From Pseudogemmobacter lacusdianii (GTDB taxonomy: Bacteria; Pseudomonadota; Alphaproteobacteria; Rhodobacterales; Rhodobacteraceae), in the NCBI RefSeq assembly GCF_030848395.1, contig NZ_JAVDBT010000021.1, forward strand, positions 1 to 42,622: DNA of 42,622 nt. The letters run 5' to 3'. The notes under the pieces were generated by a model, which saw nothing but the letters and a program-made list of their open reading frames with translations, made no database searches and was not told where the DNA came from. A program made the translations under genes and the position numbers. Shown piece by piece: positions 9,566 through 35,440 of the stretch (position 1 is the stretch's first letter; the number at the start of each line of letters is the position of its first letter).

Positions 9566-10765
9566 ATGAAACACATCACATCCACGGCCCTTGCGGCCGA
9601 GGCACAGGAGACTTGTGCCAAATCCGCGGAGCACTCGCTCCCCGGCATGGGTTCAATCACCCTGCAGCCAGCATTCCGACCGATTTCGCGTCGTGACATC
9701 ATGGCTGCGGTCAACACATGCAGCCGCGATCTCGGCATCCGGCAAGGGGCCGTGGTCGTTCTTGACGCTCTCCTGAGCTGCCTGCCCTGCCAGGGCGTGG
9801 ATGGTCGCGAGACACCGGTCTCGCCGACCACCCTGCTCACGGTCTATGCCAGCAACGAAACCCTGTGCTTCCGCGCCAAGGGCCTCACCGACCGTCAACT
9901 GCGTCGGCATCTGGAGACACTCGAAGCCGCTGGCCTGATCCGGCGCCGTGACAGTGCAAATGGCAAGCGCTTCCCTGTGATGCAGCACGGCAAACCGATC
10001 GGCGCTTTCGGGCTGGACCTGTCCCCTCTCTTCGCGCAGTCCGACGGGCTTCTCGCCCTTGCCCTACGTCGCCGCGAGGAAGCAGACGAGTTGCGCGGGC
10101 TGCGGGCCCAGATCCTCAGACTGCGCGCGGCATGTGCTGAACTCCAGCTGAGCGACACTGTCGCCACCTTCATCGACGGGCTACGCAACCTCGTGCGGCG
10201 CACATCTCTGACCCTCATTGAAGCTCGAGCAGCTCTCTCGCAACTGACCGCGGTCCTCTCTTCTCATGCAGCCATTCAGGTGCCGGCTGTTTGCGAAGCC
10301 GAACAGGTTAAGCAACGCATGCCTACCAAGGCGGAAGCCGCCCATACTGCCTCCTGCCCCGAGCCCGCCACCGACGAAGCAGTCCCTGAAGCGTTTCAAT
10401 CCCTCACCACAGAAACCTGCGACATCGCGCAAACCAATCAAAAGCCCGCCTCTGACGGACGGAATGTCCGCCACATAAAGCAAGACTCATATACAAAAAA
10501 AAGAAAGCAAGAAGCAGAGGAACTTCCTAGTTGGGCAGCCCTGACCGAGGTCAACGCCTTTTATAAAGAGCCCACCAGCGCCCAAGAGGCCACACGGATC
10601 GCTTTCGAATTCGGAAAGATGCTGAGAATAAGCCAGGAAATCCTCGCCAGCGCTGCGAGCAAGCTAGGGCTTTGGGAACTTCTCAAGCTTGAAAACCGCA
10701 TGGCAAAGCAGATCGGAACCATCCTCAACCCTGATGCCTATGTGAGATCCGTACTACGAGCGTAA
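9566..10765 (+). CDS. repC: RepC replication initiator
   Basis: 399 residues. The N-terminal winged-helix region is recognisable as RepC (AFRPISRRDIMAAVNTCSRD, GAVVVLDALLSCLP, LTDRQLRRHLETLEAAGLIRRR, FGLDLSPLF), followed by a variable linker rich in Ala and Pro and a C-terminal helical domain (EFGKMLRISQEILASAASKLG). RepC binds the origin, which in this plasmid class lies within its own gene, and starts replication in cis. The start ATG at 9566 has no strong ribosome-binding site, in keeping with attenuation by the antisense RNA opposite its leader. Two more copies of the parS-like core lie in the gene (10245, 10542) and one just after it (10770). Confidence 0.93.
   Translation: MKHITSTALAAEAQETCAKSAEHSLPGMGSITLQPAFRPISRRDIMAAVNTCSRDLGIRQGAVVVLDALLSCLPCQGVDGRETPVSPTTLLTVYASNETLCFRAKGLTDRQLRRHLETLEAAGLIRRRDSANGKRFPVMQHGKPIGAFGLDLSPLFAQSDGLLALALRRREEADELRGLRAQILRLRAACAELQLSDTVATFIDGLRNLVRRTSLTLIEARAALSQLTAVLSSHAAIQVPAVCEAEQVKQRMPTKAEAAHTASCPEPATDEAVPEAFQSLTTETCDIAQTNQKPASDGRNVRHIKQDSYTKKRKQEAEELPSWAALTEVNAFYKEPTSAQEATRIAFEFGKMLRISQEILASAASKLGLWELLKLENRMAKQIGTILNPDAYVRSVLRA
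10245..10255. promoter_or_regulatory. parS-like half-palindrome in repC
   Basis: TGACCGCGGTC repeats the 11-base centre of the parS palindromes found in repB, inside repC. It may be a weaker RepB site; chance cannot be excluded for this one copy. Confidence 0.4.
10542..10553. promoter_or_regulatory. parS-like site in repC (one mismatch)
   Basis: TGACCGAGGTCA differs at one base from the centre of the parS palindromes. Lower confidence than the perfect copies. Confidence 0.3.
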
Positions 10766-10769
10766 TCCC

Positions 10770-10780
10770 TGACCGCGGTC
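10770..10780. promoter_or_regulatory. parS-like site just downstream of repC
   Basis: TGACCGCGGTC lies five bases after the repC stop, the other common position for partition sites in repABC loci. Confidence 0.45.
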
Positions 10781-10827
10781 GCATGGCTCTGAAACGCCCG
10801 ATAGACCGCTCAAGAGGAATCAGATAG

Positions 10828-10842
10828 GTTCGTTGATTGTTC
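10828..10842 (+). promoter_or_regulatory. LexA (SOS) box of alphaproteobacterial type
   Basis: GTTC-GTTGATT-GTTC is an exact match to the alphaproteobacterial LexA consensus GTTC-N7-GTTC. It lies 29 bases upstream of the SRAP gene, the first of a DNA-damage operon, and implies induction when LexA is cleaved. Confidence 0.85.
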
Positions 10843-10870
10843 TCATATCGGAACTCTGCGAGGCGAGATC

Positions 10871-11551
10871 ATGTGCAACCTTTACGCCCAGACGAAAAGC
10901 CAGGACGCGATGCGTCAGGTCTTTCGTGACGTGCTGGAACAGGATGAGGAACTGATCGATGCCGCAGGTAACCTCGCGCCCGCAGCCTGCATCTTTCCCG
11001 ACTATGCCGCGCCAATCATTCGCCGCAGTGAAGGACGCAACTGGACGCTGACCACGGCCCGTTGGGGGATGCCAACCCCTCCCGTCTATCTTACGGCCAA
11101 GCGCACAGACCCCGGCGTAACGAACATCCGCAATGTCAGCTCGCCCCATTGGCGCAGATGGCTCGGGATCGAACACCGCTGTCTCGTCCCGTTCACAAGC
11201 TTCTCCGAACTCGATGCCCGACCCGGCGCGCCTCGCAACAACCCGGTCTGGTTCGCCCTCGGCCAGGATCGCCCGCTCGCTTTCTTCGCCGGCATCCGCA
11301 CCGAATGGACCTCGGTCAGAAAACTGAAGGAGGGCGAAGTGACAGCTGAGATATTCGGCTTCCTGACCTGTGAGCCAAATGATGCAGTTCACCCGGTGCA
11401 TCCAAAAGCCATGCCAGTGATCCTCACGCACCCAGATGAATGGCGCTGCTGGCTGACCGCGGACACGAGCGAAGCTTTGAAGCTCCAACGGCCACTGGCG
11501 AATGGGCTTCTCGATATTGTCGCGGAGGGCACACGTGCGGACCCTGCGTGA
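10871..11551 (+). CDS. SRAP-domain protein (HMCES/YedK family, abasic-site crosslinking)
   Basis: 226 residues. Cys2 right after the start Met is the catalytic nucleophile of the SRAP family, which forms a thiazolidine crosslink with abasic sites in single-stranded DNA and so shields them. Other family marks are the Asn in TNIRN (about residue 78), Glu in the stretch CLVPFTSFSELD, and the His in HPKAMPVIL near the C-terminus. The usual FYEW is FSEL here, a variant common in plasmid and alphaproteobacterial copies. It is the first gene after a LexA box and overlaps imuA, placing abasic-site protection in the same SOS operon as the translesion mutasome. Confidence 0.88.
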   Translation: MCNLYAQTKSQDAMRQVFRDVLEQDEELIDAAGNLAPAACIFPDYAAPIIRRSEGRNWTLTTARWGMPTPPVYLTAKRTDPGVTNIRNVSSPHWRRWLGIEHRCLVPFTSFSELDARPGAPRNNPVWFALGQDRPLAFFAGIRTEWTSVRKLKEGEVTAEIFGFLTCEPNDAVHPVHPKAMPVILTHPDEWRCWLTADTSEALKLQRPLANGLLDIVAEGTRADPA

Positions 11552-12133
11552 ACAGCTGAAGGCCGGAAGTGATCAACCGTTTCATCTGGTGAAGGGCCGC
11601 GTCCACGAAGTCGAAGGACGGGGGCGAAACGGCTTTGCACTGTTCCAGACCACGAGATTGCCAGGGCCGGTTTTCTGGATCGTGCTGGCGCATGATCGCG
11701 ATCGGCCAATGCCGGGATCCCTGTCAGACGGCGTCAGCGAGCGGTTGCACTTCATAAGGCGAGGGGCGAGACCGATCTGCTCTGGACGGTCGAGGAAGCG
11801 CTACGGGCGCGGCCGGTCTCTCTGGTCATAGCGGCTCCGGAAAAGCCGATCTCACTGACCGCGGGCAGGCGGCTCCAACTCGCGGCCGAGGCTGGGGACA
11901 CTACGGGCCTGATGCTGATCCAGGAGGGCAGGGGAAGCAATGCCGCCGAGACCCGCTGGAAATGTGATCCGCTGCCGTCACCTCTGGACTCGACTCGTCA
12001 TCGCTGGATCCTTAATAAGAACAAAAGAGGAACAATCGGAATCTATGATGTGAGCTGGAATGGCACGACGGCTGCTGTCCATCTGGTTCCCCAGGCTGGC
12101 GAGCGACATCAGCCTGAGGGCCCGCCCCGTTGA
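11535..12133 (+). pseudogene. imuA: ImuA-like SOS mutasome protein, single-base frameshift
   Basis: GTG at 11535 has GGAGG upstream and overlaps the SRAP stop. The first part (KAGSDQPFHLVKGRVHEVEG, PGPVFWIVLAHDR, ERLHFI) breaks at 11758-11759. One frame over, the protein continues as GETDLLWTVEEALRARPVSL, TAGRRLQLAAEAGDTTGLML and ETRWKC, ending at 12133. Restoring one G in the short G run (ATAAGG to ATAAGGG) gives a continuous protein of about 200 residues. ImuA is a RecA-like partner of ImuB and DnaE2 in mutagenic translesion synthesis. The break may be a real mutation or a sequencing error. The end overlaps imuB by 74 bases. Confidence 0.75.
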
Positions 12134-16284: not shown

Positions 16285-17542
16285 GCCGCCGGGCGGCCAG
16301 CCAACTGGCCAAAGCCATCAGGCCCGCCGTGGCAAGGCACAGCGTCAGCCCCCCGATCTGGTAGCTGAGGCCCGAGAGCAGCGTGCCGATCAGCCGACCC
16401 GCCGCATTGGCCATGTAGTAGAACCCCACATCCCGTGTGATCCTCTCTGCCGATCCGAAAGCCAGGATCAGGTAGGAATGAACCGAAGAGTTGATCGCGA
16501 AGACGAAGCCGAAAACCAAAAGTCCCCCTATGAGCGTCGCCGTCAGCCATTCCGCTGGGTCGCCGGCTACCCAGGTTGCTGCAGCAAGAGCAAACGGGAT
16601 CGGGACGAGCAGCCCTGCCCAAAGGATCGCCTTTCGGGTGGTCTCGGCCTCGGGCTGACCCTTGCCACCCAAAAGTCGGGGGGCAAAGGCCTGCACTGCG
16701 CCGTAGGCGATGATCCAGAGCGCGAGGAAACTGCCGATAAGAAAGAATGCCTCTCGCCGGCCTTCGGGTGTGCCATCGGACAGGACCGCTTGGAAATAGA
16801 CCGGGATGCCGACCACGAACCACACGTCGCGGGCGCCGAACAGGAACATACGTGCCAGCGAAAGCCGATTCACGCGCGGTTCCTTTGACCGCCAGCCACC
16901 CCAGGCCTCTTCGGATTTCATCCGCCCTGGTAGGCCTGCGGGCAGAAACAGCACTACGGCGATCAGGATCACCGCCAGCACGGCCGCCATGCCCCAGACC
17001 GCCGCCTGAAATCCCGCCAGCGCGAGCAGCGCCGCGCCGAGGAAGAAGCCCAGCCCCTTTACCGCGTTCTTCGACCCTGTAAGGAGCGCCACCCAGCGGA
17101 ACAATCCGCCGTCCTCTTTGGGGGCTAGAAGCTTGACAGCGGATTTCGAGGACATCTTGGCAAGGTCCTTGGCCACGCCCGACACGCCCTGAACGGCCAT
17201 CACGAAGGCGACCGATGCGGCGACACCCCATGTCGGATCAAGCTGTGCCAGCGCCACCAAAGCCCCGATCTGCAACGCGAGCCCGCCGTAAAGCGTGGCC
17301 GCCAAGCCAAAGCGCGCCGCCAGCCAGCCCGCAGCCAGGTTGGTGACGATGCCCGCGACTTCGTAGAGCAGGAACAGCCAGGCAAGCTGGATCGGCGTGA
17401 AGCCTAGGCTGTTGAAGTGCAAAAGCACCAGCATCCGCAGCGCGCCGTCCGACAGCATGAAGGCCCAGTAAGCCGCTGTCACGGCGGCATAGGCGCGGAG
17501 AGGATTCGGCGGCGGGGCGACGGGGCTTGCGGCGTCCGTCAC
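16271..17542 (-). CDS. arsJ: ArsJ, exporter of 1-arseno-3-phosphoglycerate
   Basis: 423 residues from a GTG at 17542 that overlaps the GAPDH stop (GTGA); an upstream ATG at 17596 would lie within the GAPDH gene. It is an MFS protein with about 11-12 membrane helices; recognisable ArsJ stretches are [72 protein letters not shown] and [17 protein letters not shown]. ArsJ exports 1-arseno-3-phosphoglycerate, which the adjacent GAPDH makes from arsenate and glyceraldehyde-3-phosphate; together they form an arsenate efflux route that needs no reduction. The tight coupling to GAPDH supports this. Confidence 0.92.
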
Positions 17543-18546
17543 AGCGAGCCTGCGACCATCCGCGCGATATCTGCAAGTCGGCAGGCATAGCCCCATTCAT
17601 TGTCATACCAGGCGTAGATCTTCACTTGGGTGCCATTGATGACCATGGTGGACGGCCCATCGACGATGGAGGAGCGCGGATCGTTGGTGAAGTCGCAGGA
17701 CACCAAAGGACGGGTTTCGAACCCAAGGATCCCCTTCAACGGCCCGTCAGCCGCGGCGGCGAACAGGGCATTTACCTCCTCGGCCGTGGTCGCCCGCTCC
17801 ACCTCGAACACGCAATCCGTGAGGGACGCATTCAAGAGCGGGACGCGCACGGCATGGCCGTTCAGGCGGCCCTTGAGTTCGGGATAGATCAGCGTGATTG
17901 CCGTGGCGCTGCCCGTTGTCGTCGGGATGAGGTTCATCAGCGCCGACCGCGCGCGGCGCATGTCCTTGGCCGGACGATCCACGATGGTCTGGGTGTTGGT
18001 CACATCATGGATCGTGGTAATCGACCCGTGCCGGATCCCAAGACTTTCGTGGATAACCTTGACCACCGGTGCAAGGCAGTTCGTCGTGCAAGACGCGGCG
18101 GTCACAAGGGTCTGCGTGCCGTCATAAAGGCGATGGTTCACCCCATAGACGAGGTTCAGCGCGCCCCCATCCTTGACCGGGGCCGAAACGACCACCTTCT
18201 TCGCCCCTGCGGCGTAGTAGGGCGCCACCTTCGCGGCTGTCTTGAAGACGCCCGTGCAGTCGATCAGCAGATCGACGCCCAGTTCCGCCAAGGGCAGCGC
18301 TTCGATGGACTTTTCATGCGTCAGACGGATGGTCTGGCCGTTCAGGATCAGTGCGCCATCGCCTGCCGCGACCGGCGTGCGCCAGCGGCCATGGACGCTG
18401 TCGAATTCCATCAGCAGCGCATGCTGATCAGCATCGCCGACGGGATCGTTCAGGAGAACGATCTCGCCACCCGCGCCGGTATCGATCAAATCTCGCAGGA
18501 CAAGCTTTCCGATCCGGCCGAGGCCGTTAAGAGCGATACGGGTCAT
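17539..18546 (-). CDS. ArsJ-associated glyceraldehyde-3-phosphate dehydrogenase
   Basis: 335 residues, complete. The NAD-binding N-terminus is [19 protein letters not shown] and the catalytic Cys is in [12 protein letters not shown] (about 150-161). [11 protein letters not shown] and [11 protein letters not shown] are typical of the C-terminal domain. In arsenic clusters this enzyme uses arsenate in place of phosphate to form 1-arseno-3-phosphoglycerate in the cytoplasm, which ArsJ pumps out. The gene sits six bases after the ArsR-ArsC fusion gene and overlaps arsJ, so the three form one minus-strand operon. Confidence 0.92.
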
Positions 18547-18551
18547 GAAGA

Positions 18552-19406
18552 TCAGGCCTTTGCGTGTGCGTCAGTGCCGATAGAGTCGACACGGGATTGG
18601 AGGGACATCCGGCTCAGCGACTCGAATGGCAGCTCGACGAAAGTCATGATCCGCCGGCGCAACGCCGCGTAGGTCTGGGCGAAAACCAGAGCCTTCTCTG
18701 CATCTGTTCCTGTTGCTTTCACCGGGTCGGGCAAACCCCAATGGCCAGTGATGGGCTGGCCGGGCCAGGGCGGGCATTCCTCGGCCGCTGCCGTGTCGCA
18801 GACGGTGAAGACGAAATCCATCACGATGCTGCCCGGCTGCTGGAACTCCGAAATATGCTTGGACCGCAGACCGGCGATGTCATGTCCGTTTCGCTTCAGG
18901 ATTTCCAAAGCGAAGGGGTTCAATTCGCTGTTGGGCCGAGTGCCAGCAGAGAAAGCCTGAAACTTGCCCTTGCCCAGATCGCGCAGAAGCGCTTCAGCAA
19001 AGATCGAACGGGCAGAATTGCCCGAGCAGATGAAAAGCACGTCGAAGTCGGTGTCGGGGATATTCGGATCCATTTGGGTGGCGTCCTTTGGGGCGGAGAG
19101 TAAGGGGGCAAGGAGATCGGGTCGCGCACGGCCCACATCGAGGGCGAGGTAGCCGATCAATCCTTCCGTCGTGTCGAGATCGACAGCGTAGTAGAGCGAC
19201 CGACCGGCCCGTGTGACCTGGACAAGACCCGACGCCGCAAGGTCAGCGAGGTGATGCGACAGCGTGTTCTGTTTCAGACCCAAAGCCTCGGCGATCTCGG
19301 TCGGCCGCACGCCTTGCGGCGCAAAGCGCATCAGCAAGCGGAAGACCGCCATCCGGCCGGGGTGGCCGAGCGTGGCGAAAGCGTGGATGGCGCGATTCTG
19401 TTCCAT
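18552..19406 (-). CDS. ArsR-ArsC fusion: winged-helix regulator joined to arsenate reductase
   Basis: 284 residues. Residues 1-105 form an ArsR-type winged helix ([29 protein letters not shown], beta wing [11 protein letters not shown]). Residues 120-265 form a low-molecular-weight-phosphatase-type arsenate reductase with the loop CSGNSARS (C127-x5-R133) and the shuttle pair in [10 protein letters not shown], as in thioredoxin-coupled ArsC. It reduces arsenate to arsenite, which Acr3 exports. There is no cysteine in the first 126 residues, so the regulator half has no obvious arsenite-binding site of its own. The ATG at 19406 abuts a palindrome (19407-19426) and lacks a well-spaced ribosome-binding site. 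It leads the operon with GAPDH and arsJ. Confidence 0.88.
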
Positions 19407-26382: not shown

Positions 26383-27357
26383 GACCTTTGCCGCGCTTTC
26401 GCAACTTGCCCGTGACCCTGCGTGTGCCGCTGGTGATGGCGGGCCTGATGATCCTGCTTGGATTTCTGGCCAGCCAGAGTGTCCTGTCGGCCTTGGGCAA
26501 GGTACAGGACGCCCGCCTGTCCGAAACCGCGCGGCTGCATGTCGAAGGCTTGTCCGTCGCTCTTGGCCCATCTGTACTTCGGCAGGATGTCTGGGAGGTC
26601 TACGACATTCTGGACCGAGCCCGCTCAGCCTACGATGGACAGAGATTGCTCCTGTCGATCGTCGCCGACGAACGCGGGCGCATCCTCGCCGCTACGGACC
26701 CGCGTCGCGCGCCTGTGGGCGAAGCCGTCGCAGAGTTCGAGGAGGGCGCCGCGCCACCTGATGCCGTTCGCATGACCGGTGACCCTGTGCTGCGGGTCGC
26801 GGCACCGCTGCTTTTTCAGGGCCGTCAGATCGGTCAGATCGTGACCGAACTGGATGTGACCGATCTTCTCGCCGAGCGCCGGAATGTCTCGATGTGGCTC
26901 TTGTTCGGAAATGCGGCGGCCACGGCGCTCCTCGCCTTCGGTGGCTGGCTGGCCGTTGCGCGAATCCTTCGACCCGTCGGCGCTTTGGTATCGGCCATGG
27001 ACGAGTCCAAGGGCGCGCCGAGGCCTATCGCTGAGTCAGATATTCCGCGTGGCGACCCGGGGCTGTCACGGCTGATCTCCAGCTACAACCGCATGACAAC
27101 GGCTGTCGAAAGCCGCGCCGAGGCCGAGCGTCGGCTTGCCGAGCGCGAACGATTTGTCAGCCTAGGAAGGCTGTCCTCATCGCTTGCACATGAGGTAAAC
27201 AACCCCTTGGGCGGTCTGCTCAATGCGACCGACACCATCCTCTCCTATTCAGACCGGCCCGAAGTCGTGCGGCAATCGGCAGAGCTGATGCAGCGAGGCC
27301 TCTCGCATCTACGGGATGTGACCCGGGCCATTCTGGATGAAAACCGCCTTGACCGCG
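26379..27357 (+). pseudogene. sensor histidine kinase (AioS-like), truncated before the ATPase domain
   Basis: The ATG overlaps the AioX-like stop. About 326 codons are authentic. Membrane helices lie at about 15-37 and 171-194 with a periplasmic sensor region between; then come a HAMP-like segment and the phospho-acceptor helix RLSSSLAHEVNNPLGG (H271). After ILDENRLDR the frame enters antisense sequence of an antiporter gene and runs on as meaningless Arg/Gln/Pro-rich codons to 27611. The HATPase domain is missing, so it cannot autophosphorylate. Pairing with a periplasmic binding protein points to an AioS-type arsenite sensor. The junction, at about 27340-27375, has no IS. Confidence 0.7.
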
Positions 27358-27830
27358 TTGGCCGCACCGTCCACATCCTCGTCCGCCGCATCGCCCGGTT
27401 GCAGATAGGCCCAAACCAGATACCCAATCAGCCCTGCAAGAAGAATAAACCCGGTCAGCCGCCCCATCTGCCCGGTCATAAAGATCGGGACCAGCACCGC
27501 GGCGGCAGCGATCATCACAGCGGTATCGCGCTTCAGCGTGGCCCCCGAAACACGGATCGGCCAAACAAGGCAGGTCAGCCCACCGATCAGGAGGATGTTG
27601 GCGATGTTTGATCCGACTATATTGCCGATGGCGATGGCCGGCACATCAGCCAAGGCCGCCTGCACCGACACTAGCAGCTCTGGCGTTGATGTGCCAAAGC
27701 CGACGACCGTCAGGCCGATCAGCAGGGACGACATGCCCAGCCGCTTCGCAATCCCAACGCTGCCGCGAACCAAAGCTTCGCCGCCGAAAAAGAGGCCGAT
27801 CAATCCGACTATGATGAAGATGTAATCCAA
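27345..27830 (-). pseudogene. Ca2+/Na+ antiporter (CaCA family, YrbG-like), N-terminal half only
   Basis: Starts at ATG 27830. About 160 authentic codons with the first alpha repeat of the CaCA family: VVGFGTSTPELLVSVQAAL (about 42-60) and AIAIGNIVGSNIANILLIGG, flanked by hydrophobic helices. Full-length members have some 320 residues with a second inverted repeat; it is missing because the gene is fused back-to-back with the truncated kinase. The last dozen codons (KAVFIQNGPGHIP) are kinase antisense. Function is lost. The two truncated genes share one junction, so a single recombination event explains both. Confidence 0.8.
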
Positions 27831-28050: not shown

Positions 28051-28695
28051 CTACCGGGGCGCGCCAATTGGCTGGATATAGGTCACGATCGAGTTTGAGG
28101 GCAGTTCCAACGCCTCTGCGATGGCCTGCCGGTTGGCTGCGCCACCAATCAGGCAGGTGCCCAGGGCTTCGGCAACGCAGGCCAGATAGACATTTTGCGC
28201 TGCGACTGCTGCATTGACATGCGCACCCACAGCCAGAGCCTGATCGTCAGCACCTTCTGCGGCTGCGCGCAACTTTTCGCCGTCCGAGACGTAAATCAGC
28301 AGGGCGGGTGCACGCGATACAAAGGCGCTGTCCGAGGAAATCGCCCGGATATCCGTATCGCTTACCTTGTCCAGGGTGTTCGTCTCATGGGCATGTCTGA
28401 ACAGCCCCTCGGCGGTCGCGAGGTAGATCACTGTATCATGCGCCGACCGCCAGGAAGGCGCGGTCTGGCCGCCGCTGTCCGGTCGGTTCACGCCGTTTGC
28501 TGCCCAAAGCAGCCGCAACAGGGCATCCTGCGCCACAGGGGCCGAGCCGAAACGTCGCACGGATTGGCGGCCCTCAAGCGCTGCTTGAAGTGTCACATCC
28601 CCGATGGCGGCGGATGCTGGAACGACGGTGGCGGCCAGCGCCACTGGGGCTGCGGCGGATGTCGCCAGAAAGCGACGGCGGTTCAGGTCATTCAT
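28051..28695 (-). CDS. Tat-exported nitroreductase-like protein
   Basis: 214 residues from the ATG at 28695 (GAGGAGA upstream). The N-terminus NRRRFLATSAAAPVALAATVV with the A-S-A end is a twin-arginine signal, so it is probably folded with its cofactor before export to the periplasm. The mature part matches nitroreductase/SagB-type FMN proteins: EGRQSVRRFGSAPV, LLRLLWAANGVNRP, HVNAAVAAQNVYLACVAEAL and IVTYIQPIGAP. The usual role is NAD(P)H- or electron-dependent reduction of flavin-bound substrates; the substrate is unknown. It is the last gene of the nqr operon, 25 bases after the CBS protein. A periplasmic flavoprotein next to NQR and ApbE is unusual. Confidence 0.78.
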   Translation of the reverse strand: MNDLNRRRFLATSAAAPVALAATVVPASAAIGDVTLQAALEGRQSVRRFGSAPVAQDALLRLLWAANGVNRPDSGGQTAPSWRSAHDTVIYLATAEGLFRHAHETNTLDKVSDTDIRAISSDSAFVSRAPALLIYVSDGEKLRAAAEGADDQALAVGAHVNAAVAAQNVYLACVAEALGTCLIGGAANRQAIAEALELPSNSIVTYIQPIGAPR

Positions 28696-28720: not shown

Positions 28721-29122
28721 TCAGCGCCACTGCAGTGACAGCGCACGCAGCACATCGGTACGGCTGACCTGTCCGAGTAGCCTGCCTTCTTCGACCACCG
28801 GGAAGCGGCGGAAGGCGGACTTGACGAACCGCTCCGCGGCAGAAACGAGATCCAGATTTGCGTCAAAGACCTCAAGTTCAGTCGACATCAGATCGGCAAC
28901 CGTGCCGCCCCATTCTTTGTAATAGGCGGCGGAAAGCGCAGCTTTCAGACCATCGCGCTTTGAGAGTACCCCCACGAGATTGCCTTCGTCGTCCAGGACG
29001 CAGGCGCCGGAAACTCCGGCATCGAGCAGGGTCGTGATTGCACGGATGATCTCAGTCTCCGGGCTCAGGGTCACCAGGTCGGTCACCATGTAATCCCTGA
29101 CGCGGGCGATCGTGTCACTCAT
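28721..29122 (-). CDS. CBS-domain pair protein
   Basis: 133 residues with two CBS domains (about 8-62 and 73-130): [19 protein letters not shown] and [15 protein letters not shown] in the first, [18 protein letters not shown] and [25 protein letters not shown] in the second. CBS pairs bind adenosine nucleotides (AMP, ATP, NAD or S-adenosylmethionine) and regulate a partner. There is no second domain, so it probably acts as a soluble energy or redox sensor protein. Its ATG overlaps the nqrM stop (ATGA), so it may tune NQR activity to the nucleotide level; that is inference. Confidence 0.88.
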
Positions 29123-29280
29123 GCTTGTCCCCCTTTCTTTTTCGGGCAGGCGTGACAGGCGTTCTGACAGGCAAGCCCGCCGCACGATCCCTTGATCGGC
29201 GTACGCCGGAACATGACGCCCAAGCTCAGCCCCAACATGGCAAGAGCAAAGATCAGCAATGTGAACACCAGTGTCTGCAT
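29119..29280 (-). CDS. nqrM: NqrM, maturation factor for Na+-NQR
   Basis: A 53-residue gene, [20 protein letters not shown] followed by the NqrM signature IKGSCGGL and further Cys residues (ACQNACHAC). One N-terminal membrane helix anchors a Cys-rich cytoplasmic tail. NqrM (formerly DUF539) is required to build the iron centre coordinated by four Cys of NqrD and NqrE, and has been reported essential for Na+-NQR activity. ATG at 29280, 13 bases after the apbE stop; its stop overlaps the CBS gene. The presence of nqrM supports a true NQR rather than an Rnf complex. Confidence 0.9.
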
Positions 29281-29292
29281 CGCCGGCTCCTA

Positions 29293-30222
29293 TCATATCA
29301 GACGTGCGGCGAATGCCGCGTTATGGCGTGCGCGTAACCCATTGCCGTCGCGGATCAGGAAAAGCGCCCCAAGGTTCTGGGCCTCTGCAAAGGCGATCCC
29401 TTGGTTTTCGCCCATCACCATCAGCGCGGTCGCCATCGCATCGGCGCGCATCGCATCGGGGGCAATGACGGAAACCGAGGCGATGCCGTTCGACACCGGT
29501 TGCCCGGTGGCAGGGTCAATCACATGCGACCAGCGCCGCCCGCCATGATCGAACCCGTTGATGGCATCGCCCGAGGTCGCCACGGCATTTGAGGACAGGC
29601 GGATGCGGCTATGCACACTGCCCGTCAGCGGATTGAGGATACCAACGGGCCAATTGCCATAGGCACGGATTTCGCCGCCGATTTCGACGATGAAATCATC
29701 TGTTTCCTGCGCCAGTATGTCCGTCAGTTTGTCCACTGCAAAGCCTTTAGCGATGCCGCAAAGATCAAGCGTTACCGGCGCGTCGGCTGTCAGCTGGCCC
29801 CCCTCGCAGCGGATGGCCTGCCACGCGCCTGCGCGGAATGTGCCCCGGATTGGGCCAAAGCCATAGCGATGCACGGCGGGACCCACGCTGGGGTCGCAGG
29901 CTCCGCCGCTCGTAGCAGCCACCGCTAGTGCGGCCCGCGTCACATGTTCGAAATCCACAGAAACCGAAATCGTCCGTAATCCGGTATTGAAGCGTGACAG
30001 GACGCTATCCGGGAGAAAGGGGCTCATCTCGGTATCTATGGCGGTAAGAGCGGTGCGAATGCGGTCGGTAATGGCAACCGGATCGCGTAGCACTGCAGAA
30101 ATGACGGTCCAGGTGGTGCCGAATGCACGCCCCGAAAGACGGGTTCGGCTGCCTGCGAATGCCGGCAGCGGCAGGCCAGCAAGGGCGATCCCGAACAATA
30201 CGCTGCGGCGGGTCGGTCGCAT
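29293..30222 (-). CDS. apbE: ApbE, FAD:protein FMN transferase
   Basis: 309 residues from the ATG at 30222; an in-frame start further up (30270) would overlap nqrF. The N-terminus MRPTRRSVLFGIALAGLPL is a signal peptide (Tat-like RR). Family marks are GTTWTVIS, CDPSVGPAVHRYGFGP, LDLCGIAKGFAVDKL, VEIGGEIRAYG and WSHVIDPATGQPV with the Mg/flavin-binding Asp further on (DAMRADAMATALMVMG). ApbE splits FAD in the periplasm and attaches FMN by a phosphoester bond to Thr or Ser in Dxx(S/T)GA(T/S) motifs of NqrB and NqrC. It follows nqrF directly, as in known nqr operons. Confidence 0.93.
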   Translation of the reverse strand: MRPTRRSVLFGIALAGLPLPAFAGSRTRLSGRAFGTTWTVISAVLRDPVAITDRIRTALTAIDTEMSPFLPDSVLSRFNTGLRTISVSVDFEHVTRAALAVAATSGGACDPSVGPAVHRYGFGPIRGTFRAGAWQAIRCEGGQLTADAPVTLDLCGIAKGFAVDKLTDILAQETDDFIVEIGGEIRAYGNWPVGILNPLTGSVHSRIRLSSNAVATSGDAINGFDHGGRRWSHVIDPATGQPVSNGIASVSVIAPDAMRADAMATALMVMGENQGIAFAEAQNLGALFLIRDGNGLRARHNAAFAARLI

Positions 30223-30226
30223 CGGC

Positions 30227-31444
30227 TCAGATCCCGAAATCGTCATTGTGAATGTCCTCCGGTTCGACACCGCAATCGTCCAGCACGGCTCGCACCGCTT
30301 GGATCATCAGGGGAGGGCCGCAAAGATAGTATTCGCAATCCTCGGGGGCAGAGTGATCCTTCAGATAACTGACATAGGCCACGTCATGCACGAATCCGGT
30401 GGCGCCTTGCCAGTCGTCACCTCTTGCGGGTTGCGACAGTGCGGGCGTCCAGCGGAAATTCGGATGTTGCCGGGCGAGTTCTTCGAATTCATCGGCATAG
30501 AACAGCTCTGCCTTTGAGCGAGCCCCATACCAGAAGCTGATCTGACGCCCGGTCCCGGCGCTAAGCTGTTCATGGATCATCGCCCGCAATGGTGCCATGC
30601 CGACGCCGCCGCCGATAAAGACCATCTCTTTTTCCGTGTCTTGCACGCGGAATTCGCCGTAGGGACCAGCGATTTCGACCACATCCCCCGGCTTCAAACC
30701 GAACAGCCATGACGAAACAATCCCGGGCGGCACATCTGGATTTCCGGGTGGCGGCGTCGCCAGCCGGATGTTCAGTACGACCAAACCCTCGTCCTGCGGA
30801 CGTGAGGCGACCGAATAGGCGCGCGAGACCGGCGCTGCGGACTGTGCCACAAGATCAAGGATGCCCAGCCGTTCCCATTCCTCACGGAACGCTGCGGGCT
30901 GGTTGATATCGGAATAGGCGCGACGATAGGTAGGGGCGGTCACCTGAACGAAGTTTCCCGCTTGGAAATCGAATGAGGCACCTTCGGGCAGAGCCAGGGC
31001 GATTTCGCGGATCAGGGGCGTCAGACTGGTAATGCTAGTTACGCGGCAGATATGGCTGACCGAACCCAGCACGTCCTCGGGTACGTTTACGGCCATATCT
31101 CCGCGCACCGTAACCTGACAAGCCAGCCGCACGCCTGCTCGCAGATCTGCAGGGGAAAGCCGCGCAGTCTCGGTCGCCAGCGGCCCCTGCGTGCCGGTGA
31201 CGCCCGAGACCCGGCATAGGCCACAGGTGCCCTGTCCGGCACAGCCAGATGGGACAGGCACGCCGGCCCCGTTCAGCAGGTCTAGCAGTTTCTCGTTACT
31301 TTGCCCGTCGATCCGGCGCTGGCCGTTCAAGGTGAGCACCACTGGGCGTGAGGGCAGCAGCTGGGCGCGGGCTTTCTGTAAGGCCCAGGCCAGCAGGATG
31401 GTCAGCCCGGTCAGAAATATCAGGGCGAACAGGATCTCGGTCAT
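30227..31444 (-). CDS. nqrF: NqrF, NADH dehydrogenase subunit of Na+-NQR
   Basis: 405 residues, complete. One N-terminal membrane helix (about 3-24) is followed by a plant-type 2Fe-2S domain with C-x5-C-x2-C ([10 protein letters not shown]) and the fourth Cys in RLACQV. The FAD/NADH reductase domain has RAYSVAS for [25 protein letters not shown] for NADH, CGPP near the end, and C-terminal DDFGI. It accepts electrons from NADH on the cytoplasmic side and passes them through FAD and 2Fe-2S to the NqrD/E iron. Start at ATG 31444 overlaps nqrE. Confidence 0.95.
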
Positions 31445-32043
31445 GGCAGACTGACCCCCACGAATGCGGAAAAGCCCATCGACATGATCCCGGCGACTAT
31501 GAAGGCGGCGCCAAGCCCTTCGAGCCCACGCGGCATATCAGCATAGCGCAGCCGCTCGCGAATGGCGGCAAATGCGGTGATCGCCAGCGCCCAACCAATG
31601 CCGGTGCCGATACCGTACACCGTGCTTTGCGCCAGATCGTAGTCACGCTCGACCATGAAAAGACTACCGCCAATGATCGCGCAGTTGATGGCCAGCAGCG
31701 GTAGATAGATCCCCATGGCGGCATGCAGCGCGGGCGCATAACGGTCCAGAACCATTTCCAGCACCTGTACCATAGCGGCGACGATGCCCAGAAAGGTAAT
31801 CAGTCGCAGGAAGTTCAGATCGAGATCGCCAAATCCGACCCATGCCAGCGCGCCGGGTGCCAGTACCCACGCGTAAAGCAGGTGATTGAGAGGCACCGAC
31901 AGACCCTGCACCACGATCAGCGAGATGCCGACGCCAAAGGCAGTCTTCACCTGCCGTGACACCGCAAGAAAGGTGCACATGCCTAGGAAGAACGATAGTG
32001 CGAGGTTTTCCTCAAAAATGGAACGCTGGAAGAGGTCGATCAT
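31441..32043 (-). CDS. nqrE: NqrE, membrane subunit of Na+-NQR
   Basis: 200 residues, six membrane helices, family length. The conserved half-channel Cys residues are in [19 protein letters not shown] and [15 protein letters not shown]; with two from NqrD they hold the intramembrane iron. [24 protein letters not shown] is typical of NqrE/RnfA. It overlaps nqrD by four bases upstream and nqrF downstream. Confidence 0.95.
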
Positions 32044-32687
32044 GACGATGCCTCCGATCCGGTATCGCGTGGGGCGAAATCAGGTTTTTCGGCCAGTCGC
32101 CCGCGCCAGCTGCGCAGGGCCCAGACCAGGAGGCCAAGTATGATGAACGCCGAAGGGGCCAGCAGCATTAGTCGCAGCGGCACGAACCAGCCGCCCTGCG
32201 CCTGAGTGATCAGGATCTGTATGCCGAACAGGCTGCCTGCGCCGAACAGCTCGCGGATGAAGGCCACGCTCATCAGCACGAGCGAATAACCAAGCCCATT
32301 GCCAAGCGCGTCGATCATCGAGGGCAACGGCGGGTTATGCATAGCATAGGCCTCTGTCCGACCCAGAACTATGCAGTTGGTCGCGATCAGCGACACGAAA
32401 ACCGTCAGCCGCTGGCTCATGTCATGGGCGAATCCCTGCAACAGCAGATCGGCCAATATCACCAGTGTTGCGATGATCGTCAGTTGCACGATGATCCGGA
32501 TCTGGTTCGGAATATGGCTGCGCAGGGCCGAGATGAGGCCCGCCGCCAGAGTCACCACCACGGTCAACGCGACCGACATGGTCAGCGCCGTCGCCATCGA
32601 GGTCGTCACCGCCAGCGCCGAGCAGATGCCGAGGATATGGACGGCGACCGGATTCTTGTCGATCAGCGGATCGGTCAGTTGCTTCAC
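32040..32687 (-). CDS. nqrD: NqrD, membrane subunit of Na+-NQR
   Basis: 215 residues with six membrane helices. The Cys residues of the iron site are in [14 protein letters not shown] (C22) and [18 protein letters not shown]. The second half has [30 protein letters not shown], and the C-terminus is a longer charged tail ([16 protein letters not shown]) than in Vibrio. NqrD and NqrE are inverted homologues that carry electrons and Na+ across the membrane. Four-base overlaps with nqrC and nqrE support strict co-translation. Confidence 0.95.
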
Positions 32688-33463
32688 AGCCCGGCCTCCC
32701 CTTTGCGCAGATTGTCCATGAAGGGACCGAAACCATCGGGGCCCAGCCAGAAATGCACCATGTCGATGGTGCCGTAGCTGGTGACGGAGGCCCCCGAGAT
32801 CATTTCGACCTCAAAATCCCCGGATGCACCTGAAACTGTGTCGATCTGGATCACGTCCCCCTCGAAAATGCGACGCCCGGTCCAGCCGTTGCGAAACTCG
32901 GCCTCGGTCACGCGCGATCCCAAGCCCGGGGTCTCGCCCTGTTCATAGACCGTGAAAGCGGCGACGGTGTTCAGGTCGCCCTCCAGCGCCAGATAGGCGC
33001 GGATGGTGGATTGATAGCCCGCACCGCGCACCGGCAGAACCAGAAGCCGGATTTCGTCCCCCTCGCGCACCAGCCAGATTAGCGATTCATTCTCGCGCCG
33101 GCTGATCGCGGCAAGATCGGCCGCCGGAGGCAGCGCGGTGCTGCGATCAGGATCTGCTGCCGCTGCGGTTTGGTCGAAATCGGTGGGGTCTGTCTGCGAA
33201 ATCCGACCCGTTGCCAGATCGACGATCAGGGTTTCGATCCCGCCACCATCGAGCAGATCGGAGATACCTGGTACGCTTTCCAGCATTGCCGCCATCTGAC
33301 CGGCGCGCGCAGCGAGGCGGTTTTCTTCGATCAGCGGGCGCAAGGTGACGGCGGTCCCGGCAACGATCAAGGCACAGATGGCGGCGACCAGCGCCGCCAT
33401 GCCGATGGATTTCACCGGATCGCTGTTGGGACGGGCCAGGAAGCGTTGGAAAGCCTTAGCCAT
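32684..33463 (-). CDS. nqrC: NqrC, periplasmic FMN subunit of Na+-NQR (Ser at the FMN site)
   Basis: 259 residues from the ATG at 33463. One N-terminal membrane helix (about 20-42) is followed by the periplasmic FMN-binding domain. Two flavin-attachment-like motifs are seen close together: DTVSGAS and, 16 residues on, MISGASVTSYG. The second aligns with the FMN-Thr site of Vibrio NqrC (DGLSGATLTS, recalled from memory) but has Ser in place of Thr and Glu-Met for the Asp-Gly. HFWLGPDGFGPFMDNL near the end is typical of NqrC. ApbE is known to modify Ser in some proteins, so a Ser-linked FMN is possible. The start overlaps nqrB by eight bases. Confidence 0.92.
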   Translation of the reverse strand: MAKAFQRFLARPNSDPVKSIGMAALVAAICALIVAGTAVTLRPLIEENRLAARAGQMAAMLESVPGISDLLDGGGIETLIVDLATGRISQTDPTDFDQTAAAADPDRSTALPPAADLAAISRRENESLIWLVREGDEIRLLVLPVRGAGYQSTIRAYLALEGDLNTVAAFTVYEQGETPGLGSRVTEAEFRNGWTGRRIFEGDVIQIDTVSGASGDFEVEMISGASVTSYGTIDMVHFWLGPDGFGPFMDNLRKGEAGL

Positions 33464-34235
33464 TGCGCAGCCTCCGAGCACGGTGATGCATCCATGCGGA
33501 ATGGATTACGATTGCGATATGGTCCAGCAGCGGCGCAAATATCTGCGCCAGCAATGTGGCAAAAACCACTGCGCCAAAGACAGGACCGGAGGCCGCGAAC
33601 AAGGCGGTCAACCCACCAGCCAGCACTCCATATGCCAGGCGGCCTAGGGATGTCGCACCCGATACAGCCGGATCGGCGGTCAGGAAGAGCAGCGCCAGCA
33701 GCAACGTGCCCGTGATCAACATGGTCATCTGCTCCGGCGCGATCAGCGCGCTGACTCCGGCAAGCCCGGCTGCAAAACCGGCCAACACTGTGAGGCGCGC
33801 CTGCCCTGTGATCACCAGCAAAGCCAAGGCAGGCAGGATGGCGATCAGCGGCAGATCCGGGCCTTGACGCCAGGGCTGATCGGCAAAGGAAAAGGCCATG
33901 AAGGCGAATGTCAGCGCCACTGGCTGCACGAAGTTGCGGCCTCTCCCGCCAAAGATCGCCTCACCCAGCACCATGCCGAAACTGACGCCCAAGGCCAATT
34001 GCCAGAAGGGTACGCCCATGGGCGCAAACAGGGCGACCAGCAGGGCTGCGACAGCACCGTGCAACCCCATCCCTTGGCGTCTGACCTGCGCGAACAGAGC
34101 CTGCCAGCCAAAGATCAGTACCGCGCAGAACAGCAGCCGCGATGCGACCCAATGGTCCTGCGACCATAGCCAGGCAAGAGGCGGCAGCAGGGCGAGGATA
34201 GCCGCAAGATCATCCCTCAGCAGTCCCGGCCTCAT
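33456..34235 (-). CDS. nqrB: NqrB, short variant lacking the usual FMN loop
   Basis: 259 residues against about 410 in Vibrio. Conserved parts are LGVSFGMVLGEAIFGGRGRNFVQPV and LTADPAVSGATSLGRLAYG, then FATLLAQIFAPLLDHIAI at the C-terminus. About nine or ten hydrophobic helices can be drawn. In characterised NqrB, FMN is attached to a Thr in DGYSGAT shortly after the FxxP region; that loop is absent here. Instead SGAT appears in a different place, in DPAVSGATS, where Vibrio has DPVSASFT. So the FMN may be attached elsewhere or be absent. The N-terminal extension that binds riboflavin and quinone is also shortened. The start overlaps nqrA (ATGA). Confidence 0.85.
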   Translation of the reverse strand: MRPGLLRDDLAAILALLPPLAWLWSQDHWVASRLLFCAVLIFGWQALFAQVRRQGMGLHGAVAALLVALFAPMGVPFWQLALGVSFGMVLGEAIFGGRGRNFVQPVALTFAFMAFSFADQPWRQGPDLPLIAILPALALLVITGQARLTVLAGFAAGLAGVSALIAPEQMTMLITGTLLLALLFLTADPAVSGATSLGRLAYGVLAGGLTALFAASGPVFGAVVFATLLAQIFAPLLDHIAIVIHSAWMHHRARRLRNG

Positions 34236-35440
34236 ATCGTAGCCTCCAACTCATGAAGGGTCTGGCGCAGCAGAACGCGGTAATCGGGGTGCCCTCGCAG
34301 GCGGGCATTCAATGCCATGAGGTCCTCCTCGATCAGGCCAAGAACACCCAGATCTCGCGCCGCTGTGAGATCTCCCGAGGCGAGTGCGCGTAAAAGCGGA
34401 ACCGCGAGTATCCCCGGGGGCATCGTAACCTCGTCCCATGGGTTTGGGATGAGGGCGGCTATGCGCGGCGCCGTCAGCCGCATGAACCAGCCCTTTCGGT
34501 GATCGGCCCTTTCGTGCGGGACGGCTGAGATCTGACGGATGCCTGGCCGCAGAAAGGTGGCCGGGCTGCCATTTTCTCCGCCCGCCAGCAGGCGTAGGGT
34601 TGTATCCTTCAGCCTTCCAGCGGCAAGATCATGCAGGCGCGCACCGATCGGGGCGGCAATCAGGCCGGGACGGGCCATTGCGGACCCGGTAAGCGCGACG
34701 ATGCGGCGCGGCCAGATCGTTCCGGTCTTCAGTAGATGGCCAAGCGCCGCGACCTCTTGCCAGTGGATCTGCCAGACCATCCCACCATGGGCGACCGGAT
34801 GCAGGGTATGGATATGCGCCGAGGCCAGACCTCCGCGGAATGGGTGGGTGCGGATGCCTAAGACTTCTGGCAGGGCTAGATCGGGGGGATGGCAGAGGTT
34901 GACCGGCCCATCTGAAAGCATCGTCAAAGCACTCAGCCCGCGCGTGAACCAATCCATGAGATCAGGCAGGATCGCCGCAGGATCAGGCATGCCCGGAGCG
35001 CCCTCTGTCAACGTGACGAACAGGGCCTCGGGCTGTGTCGATGGATCGGGGATCCGCCCGAAAGGGCGCGTTCGCAACGCGGTCCAGAGCCCCGAGGCGA
35101 TCATGAGATCAATCAGCTGCGCGCGATCCGCGACATCTGTCGTGAACTGCCGCACGGCATCGCCCTCGGGAAGGATTTCCAGCTCAGAAAGGCTGCGACG
35201 AGCGCCAAGTTCAAGCTTTGATACCCGCCCGGCTGCAGGGGCGATTGCGGTGATCCATGACCGCTTGCGATCACGAAAGAGGATATCGCCCGCGGCAACT
35301 TTCTGGTTCGCTTTGACCATCAGCGCGGGCCTTAGCTGTTGCAGATCGGATCCCGTGATACCGAGAGGACTATCCGAAGATACGTTTTCGACCAGACCGC
35401 CAGTCAGTCTCGGGCACCAAGCCCCTATCATGGGGATCAT
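34232..35440 (-). CDS. nqrA: NqrA, cytoplasmic quinone-site subunit of Na+-NQR
   Basis: 402 residues (about 446 in Vibrio). The N-terminal part is a barrel-sandwich/RnfC-like domain (LRPALMVKANQKVAAGDILF, ITAIAPAAGRV). Family marks are SGLWTALRTRPFGRIP, FVTLTEGAPGMPDP, HPFRGGLASAHIHTLHPV and ALTGSAMARPGLI. NqrA carries no cofactor but contacts NqrB at the ubiquinone site. It heads the operon; the ATG at 35440 has GGAGA four bases upstream. The upstream region has an FNR-type box at 35517-35530, about 80 bases before the start. Shorter length is in keeping with a divergent NQR. Confidence 0.9.
   Translation of the reverse strand: MIPMIGAWCPRLTGGLVENVSSDSPLGITGSDLQQLRPALMVKANQKVAAGDILFRDRKRSWITAIAPAAGRVSKLELGARRSLSELEILPEGDAVRQFTTDVADRAQLIDLMIASGLWTALRTRPFGRIPDPSTQPEALFVTLTEGAPGMPDPAAILPDLMDWFTRGLSALTMLSDGPVNLCHPPDLALPEVLGIRTHPFRGGLASAHIHTLHPVAHGGMVWQIHWQEVAALGHLLKTGTIWPRRIVALTGSAMARPGLIAAPIGARLHDLAAGRLKDTTLRLLAGGENGSPATFLRPGIRQISAVPHERADHRKGWFMRLTAPRIAALIPNPWDEVTMPPGILAVPLLRALASGDLTAARDLGVLGLIEEDLMALNARLRGHPDYRVLLRQTLHELEATI

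Follow-up and report, generated by a model that had tools for sequence, protein, structure and literature searches.

Where NQR and RNF complexes pump ions is debated, with NqrB/RnfD and NqrD/E as the candidate sites (PMC12174285). In NqrB, the residues of the quinone site have been defined (PMC10643135, PMC4014512, PMC12174285), extra helices of that site lie in the N-terminal region (PMC12174285), and D346 is a riboflavin ligand (PMC10643135). The published ApbE flavinylation motif, D-x-x-[S/T]-G-A-[S/T], includes Ser, which ApbE accepts with lower efficiency in T-to-S replacements; losing the Asp of the motif had minor effects in a test protein (PMC12052999). The closest published idea to the one developed below comes from two-subunit Nqr/Rnf-like systems, which pair an NqrB–NAD-domain fusion with an NqrC-like subunit and contain no NqrD/E. 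Their NqrB/RnfD-like subunit has, as in the complex described here, lost its flavinylation Thr, and one-way electron flow has been proposed for them (PMC8238504, PMC10979944).

The window, by which we mean the whole stretch of DNA analysed, is a 42,622-base contig of the 3.78-Mb genome of Pseudogemmobacter lacusdianii. Its minus strand carries genes in the order nqrA-B-C-D-E-F-apbE, followed by an NqrM match, a CBS-domain gene and a nitroreductase-family gene (Table 1). As in canonical Na+-NQR, the six nqr genes and apbE/nqrM make up one operon. Curated NCBIfam models recognize NqrD, NqrE and NqrF above their cut-offs, and NqrA, NqrB and NqrC match theirs below cut-off; the short NqrB is the sole match to PF03116 in this genome. 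In the scripted comparison of short-NQR loci, start codons were set by a simple rule, next to the nqrA stop. Further along the minus strand, a 173-aa frame (27309–27830) resembles a sodium/calcium exchanger (PF01699 in L095) and looks truncated, compared with about 330–350 aa at the same place in L095, L099 and L100.

Table 1. The NQR operon of the window and the genes that follow it.
Feature	Coordinates	Strand	Remarks
nqrA	34232..35440	-	402 aa; C-terminal SLBB domain, 41/51 positions matched
nqrB, short form	33456..34235	-	259 aa; ten-helix NqrB/RnfD core; FMN loop and N-terminal quinone-site region both absent
nqrC	32684..33463	-	259 aa from ATG 33463; GTG at 33481 also a possible start; FMN_bind domain; motif EMISGASVTS
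nqrD	32040..32687	-	both cluster cysteines present
nqrE	31441..32043	-	both cluster cysteines present
nqrF	30227..31444	-	[2Fe-2S], FAD and NAD-binding domains
apbE	29293..30270	-	FMN transferase
nqrM (PF04400) match	29137..29217	-	maturation factor; 23.7 bits (cut-off 22), covering profile positions 1-29 of 43
CBS-domain protein	28721..29122	-	relative 3' of the operon in most short-NQR loci extending that far
nitroreductase-family (PF00881) protein	28051..28695	-	twin-arginine motif NRRRFLATSAAAPVALAATVVPASA; proposed periplasmic acceptor in the window's subclade

At 259 aa, the window's NqrB belongs to a family of 112 distinct short sequences of 249–287 aa. A preliminary description of this DNA had called the protein short and its DGYSGAT loop missing, and both observations hold. 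The DG[FY][ST]GAT loop is absent from the window protein, Vibrio positions 224–271 have nearly no counterpart in the aligned short proteins, and the FMN threonine is found in 0/112 short and 44/44 canonical NqrBs. A structural alignment, proposed in that description as a test that could refute it, bears it out: the alignment places 252 of the 259 residues of the predicted window structure (pLDDT 94.1) on V. cholerae NqrB 49–414, and the sequence alignment has a gap at the loop in 112/112 short proteins. Because the loop for attachment is absent, the short NqrB probably carries no covalent FMN. A frameshift, chance or a sequencing artefact behind the short form was rejected, since 131 loci share it, a count that leaves out L085, whose NqrB frame continues into NqrC, and L108, where the script called no NqrB.

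The cofactor sites of NqrD, NqrE and NqrF are, by comparison, complete. The window retains NqrD Cys22/105, NqrE Cys23/121 and NqrF Cys68/74/77/109, and the preliminary description was right to list these cysteines, ApbE and NqrM as present. Among the short loci, the cluster cysteines of NqrD are conserved at both sites in 109/109, those of NqrE in 107/107 and 106/107, and those of NqrF in 105, 105, 105 and 104 of 105; the canonical proteins have them in 44/44 throughout. In sequence, then, the input half (NqrF, NqrD/E and NqrC with its ApbE motif) is intact.

We propose that the complex is an NQR without its quinone-reducing output half, in which NADH electrons would pass via NqrC to a dedicated periplasmic acceptor. 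Electrons would enter from NADH at the FAD and [2Fe-2S] of NqrF and cross the intramembrane [2Fe-2S] of NqrD/E to reach the covalent FMN of NqrC. From there a soluble partner would take them up in the periplasm; for most family members this would be a multiheme cytochrome c, and for the window's subclade a Tat-signal nitroreductase-family protein. The role of NqrB and NqrA would be that of a scaffold and a docking site, with NqrB possibly retaining riboflavin. The loss of the FMN loop and quinone region from NqrB, the intact input half and the gene associations described below can be read from the sequences; path, direction and partners we infer from sequence and gene order, and we put the probability of this reading at about 0.65.

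The destination of the electrons is suggested by neighbours that the preliminary description had missed, namely genes for multiheme cytochromes or, for the subclade of the window, for a flavoprotein with a Tat signal. The 112 distinct short loci divide into 80 with a pentaheme cytochrome, 7 with a cytochrome of four or six hemes (one of them an NqrC fusion), 8 with the nitroreductase and 17 with neither. ORFs containing three or more CXXCH occur in 86/108 short loci (the distinct loci with at least 1.5 kb upstream) and, by the same criterion, in 1/44 canonical controls, which are 44 of the roughly 78 such loci in the order (Fisher p ~3e-20; the test ignores relatedness, and related genomes are non-independent samples). 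The ORF in that single control (L171:14466-15758) has five CXXCH and is unlike the pentaheme family. None of the 80 pentaheme frames is more than 200 bases away from the nqrA frame, and 76 are divergent from it. The other four (L107, L121, L130 and L141, that of L121 cut by the contig end) are on the same strand directly before nqrA, so each may be the first gene of its operon. In L154, a Bauldia MAG, the NqrC frame itself (10495-11925) runs via a proline-rich linker into a c3-type tetraheme with four CXXCH, and Pfam places FMN_bind and Cytochrom_c3_2 in the one frame.

The association also holds across genomes. A pentaheme profile matched 64 of 390 genomes of the order, comprising 47 of the 49 with short NqrB and 17 of the 341 others (Fisher p ~1e-43, relatedness again ignored). 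Among the 47, G289 has a fragment only, G023 a split gene, and G352 the gene on another contig; the profile search found no pentaheme in the short-NqrB genomes G000 and G251. In 14 of the 17 pentaheme genomes without short NQR, a ferric-reductase/NOX-type protein is encoded divergently beside the pentaheme, a neighbour seen in 0/112 short-NQR loci. The basis for counting all 14 was similarity to the L214 protein, which has ferric-reductase, FAD and NAD-binding domains; Pfam matched nine of ten such frames, the tenth (L216) being the wrong strand. In the remaining three genomes, all of one genus (L226, L228 and L230), the pentaheme's neighbours are a cytochrome with nine CXXCH (PF11783) and a cytochrome b561, possibly a third way of feeding it. 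The membrane part of NOX/ferric-reductase proteins is heme-b based and unrelated to NQR. That the same pentaheme is paired with two or more non-homologous membrane-spanning conduits is our main argument for outward electron flow. Foldseek gave no confident PDB match for the pentaheme; VIA-align pointed, among the folds it listed, to a resemblance to NrfA-type folds and octaheme relatives, so the pentaheme may itself be a reductase.

Some loci have neither partner. Of these 17, three have little or no upstream DNA, L034 is transposon-cut, and L110 retains only a pentaheme fragment; the rest, including most of a five-member clade, contain no candidate partner in the locus DNA examined. That clade (L110, L115, L119, L124 and L138, with L124 and L138 on short contigs) has neither an intact cytochrome nor a nitroreductase nearby. 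A similarity search over 16 of the 17 (without L034) found no shared alternative partner beyond the CBS gene.

Within the window's subclade, every locus that extends past apbE carries the nitroreductase-family gene (8/8 distinct loci, 14/14 counting near-copies), with an RRxF Tat motif in all 14. This gene occurs in no other short locus and in 0/44 canonical controls, and the locus DNA examined for the eight distinct subclade members holds no ORF with two or more CXXCH. The window's protein matches PF00881 with an E of 2.1e-19, has a twin-arginine signal from which export is predicted, and has nitroreductase-like proteins as its PDB relatives. A profile search of the window's genome found no pentaheme elsewhere at E<=1e-10; the best match of a single pentaheme query (E 0.007) lies over a frame with stops. 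A Tat-exported, folded flavoprotein beside a complex with a periplasm-exposed NqrC FMN would be a natural acceptor, and we propose it as the partner in the window from conserved gene order and its signal motif.

The partners also bear on direction. Among the pentaheme's other partners, NOX/ferric-reductase-type proteins move electrons from NAD(P)H outward, and the nitroreductase family consists mostly of reductases. Both points count against the same wiring run in reverse, in which a periplasmic cytochrome or flavoprotein would donate to NqrC and an ion gradient would drive electrons up to NAD+. We judge this reversal unlikely, if deserving of attention, as RNF complexes have been described to work both ways (PMC11889175) and NqrF, NqrD/E and NqrC are all retained.

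Alternatively, the complex could still be an NADH:quinone reductase, with the NqrC FMN docking directly at a residual NqrB flavin pocket and quinone binding at a new place. The truncation of NqrB is, by alignment and structural comparison, larger than the preliminary description stated, in that the N-terminal region bearing the extra quinone-site helices is missing too. V. cholerae NqrB E157, F159 and G140, each present in 44/44 canonical proteins, are kept in 0/112, 1/112 and 2/112 short ones, and G141 in 28/112. The ten-helix scaffold is kept, but only a minority of the quinone-site residues, and of the acidic residues along the proposed Na+ path, survive. The riboflavin pocket, in turn, is partly conserved (G198 in 112, D346 in 110, T162 in 79, N200 in 61 and N203 in 54 of the 112; G, D, A, N and Q in the window), so some electron flow into NqrB is possible. 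For a two-subunit Nqr/Rnf-like complex whose NqrB-like subunit lacks the Thr, a covalent flavin sampling a non-covalent site has been proposed from a model (PMC10979944). Nonetheless, continued quinone reduction is at odds with the lost quinone-site residues and N-terminal region, and it leaves the cytochrome association, the NqrC–cytochrome fusion and the NOX pairing unexplained; we regard it as improbable.

The preliminary description had further pointed to a Ser at the FMN site of NqrC, a second SGAS motif in that protein and an SGAT displaced within NqrB. The window's NqrC ends ...EMISGASVTSYG..., and its Ser does align with the last Thr of LSGATLTS in V. cholerae NqrC. The motif [STA]GA[ST] is present in 110/110 scored short-NQR loci (two of the 112 had no NqrC to score), reading EMISGAS in the window with Glu at the position of the motif Asp. 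Its last residue is Thr in 99/110 and Ser in 11/110, the latter being eight loci of the window's subclade, the transposon-cut copy L034, and L129/L137. Because Ser falls within the published ApbE motif and is confined mainly to this subclade, it is mainly a subclade trait and not an anomaly. On this basis the motif is kept for covalent FMN, and flavinylation of NqrC is predicted. The second motif, DTVSGAS, exists but lies 12, not 16, residues before the first; among those listed, it occurs only in the window, in L034 and L090 (near-identical copies), and in L093 as DTTSGAS. In NqrB, the window's DPAVSGATS aligns with the canonical C-terminal motif DPVSASFTN, its Asp corresponding to D346, and SGAT appears at this position in 5/112 short NqrBs (the window, L034, L090, L092 and L093). 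The SGAT overlies the DPVSA.. motif beside riboflavin and was rejected as a displaced FMN site. A full NQR with its flavins moved to these two motifs, present as they are, is thus highly improbable, given that SGAT is confined to five NqrBs, that most NqrCs have Thr, and that the NqrB SGAT would sit on the membrane side beyond reach of periplasmic ApbE (from PMC10643135). What survives of the earlier proposal is that, with the NqrB FMN loop gone, the sequence points to a separate kind of NQR whose flavin set differs.

The short form occurs in 48 of 389 relatives of the order, or 49/390 with the window's genome, where the class is defined by a single long match and G094, G263, G280 and G381 (one weak match each) are left unclassed. 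A class-wide sample of 385 genomes gave three long single matches (the window's own genome, one of the same family and G504), and a phylum sample of 398 gave at least five, all in the window's family among the matches listed; the remaining class and phylum matches listed are partial, in frames of 374–484 aa. Names are attached to the best 80 of 168 confirmed loci; these include Rhodobacterales, a large number of Hyphomicrobiales and two Burkholderiales MAGs, and the closest match among them is Pseudogemmobacter bohemicus Cd-10, with 99% NqrB identity. The short NQR is also found on some plasmids, and it is annotated as NQR subunits or as "RnfABCDGE type electron transport complex subunit D".

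A tree of concatenated NqrD+E+F was built by a quick method and rooted on the canonical rows. It used 20 of the 44 canonical rows and 69 of the 104 short rows that have D, E and F, namely non-pentaheme rows and, of the pentaheme ones, those with names. A single branch (SH-aLRT 100) sets the short group apart. Members of the window's subclade form one clade (support 100), which joins pentaheme-bearing members with a support of 93, under the tool's mark of 95. An identical NqrB protein is shared by L035, L095-L098 and L145, which come from Shinella, Rhizobium, Brucella and other Hyphomicrobiales; a recombinase gene lies close by (in L095 at 17393-19312), and this suggests recent horizontal transfer. 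The Paracoccus aminophilus plasmid pAMI8 (L034, 13477-17091) carries a near-identical nqrA-B-C (NqrB 98.7%) followed by a recombinase and a Tn3-family transposase, and nqrD-F and apbE were not seen in its 24.7 kb. This copy, cut after nqrC by the insertion, together with the G023 frame break and the G289 pentaheme fragment, could speak for a decaying operon without function, a reading that the intact nqr frames of the window and the retention of cofactor cysteines in nearly every member across divergent genera make scarcely credible.

Were our preferred reading true, it would describe a quinone-free route from NADH to periplasmic cytochromes or flavoenzymes. We extend it tentatively, at somewhat less than even odds, to a half-NQR that would work as an NADH-to-periplasm pump, in which NqrD/E alone couple ion transport, quinone is bypassed, and the acceptors (NrfA-like pentaheme, NqrC-fused small tetraheme or Tat nitroreductase) are interchangeable. 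A natural complex that keeps NqrD/E and NqrC, and is without the NqrB FMN, the quinone site and most acidic Na+-path residues, puts the question of the pumping site within reach of a direct test, since continued pumping would mean that NqrB flavin chemistry is dispensable. The literature searched, largely without subscription papers, contained no description of a short NqrB with periplasmic cytochromes.

Set against known systems, the complex departs from canonical Na+-NQR of the V. cholerae type in its short NqrB, from which the FMN loop and the N-terminal quinone-site region are missing, along with most residues of the quinone site and most acidic ones on the Na+ path. It departs also in its surroundings: canonical loci of the same order have a multiheme gene (at least three CXXCH) nearby in 1/44 and a nitroreductase in 0/44, whereas most short loci adjoin such a gene. 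RNF and short NQR have core subunits in common (B/D, C/G, D/E and E/A), but the input of RNF is RnfB (ferredoxin) and that of short NQR is NqrF (NADH), and the window operon has nqrF and nqrA instead of the Fe-S subunits RnfB and RnfC. RnfD carries covalent FMN (PMC12174285), unlike the loop-less short NqrB. The Methanosarcina RNF, reported with a multiheme cytochrome, MmcA, is a precedent in kind for linking such a complex to a cytochrome. NOX/ferric-reductase (PF01794) conduits take the same divergent position beside the same pentaheme in 14/17 loci, but no flavinylated periplasmic subunit was seen beside them. Finally, relative to the two-subunit Nqr/Rnf-like systems, the short NQR keeps the opposite half, NqrF-NqrD/E-NqrC, intact, and where those systems have an NqrB–NAD-domain fusion, the window's NqrB carries PF03116 alone, with NAD_binding_1 on a separate NqrF.
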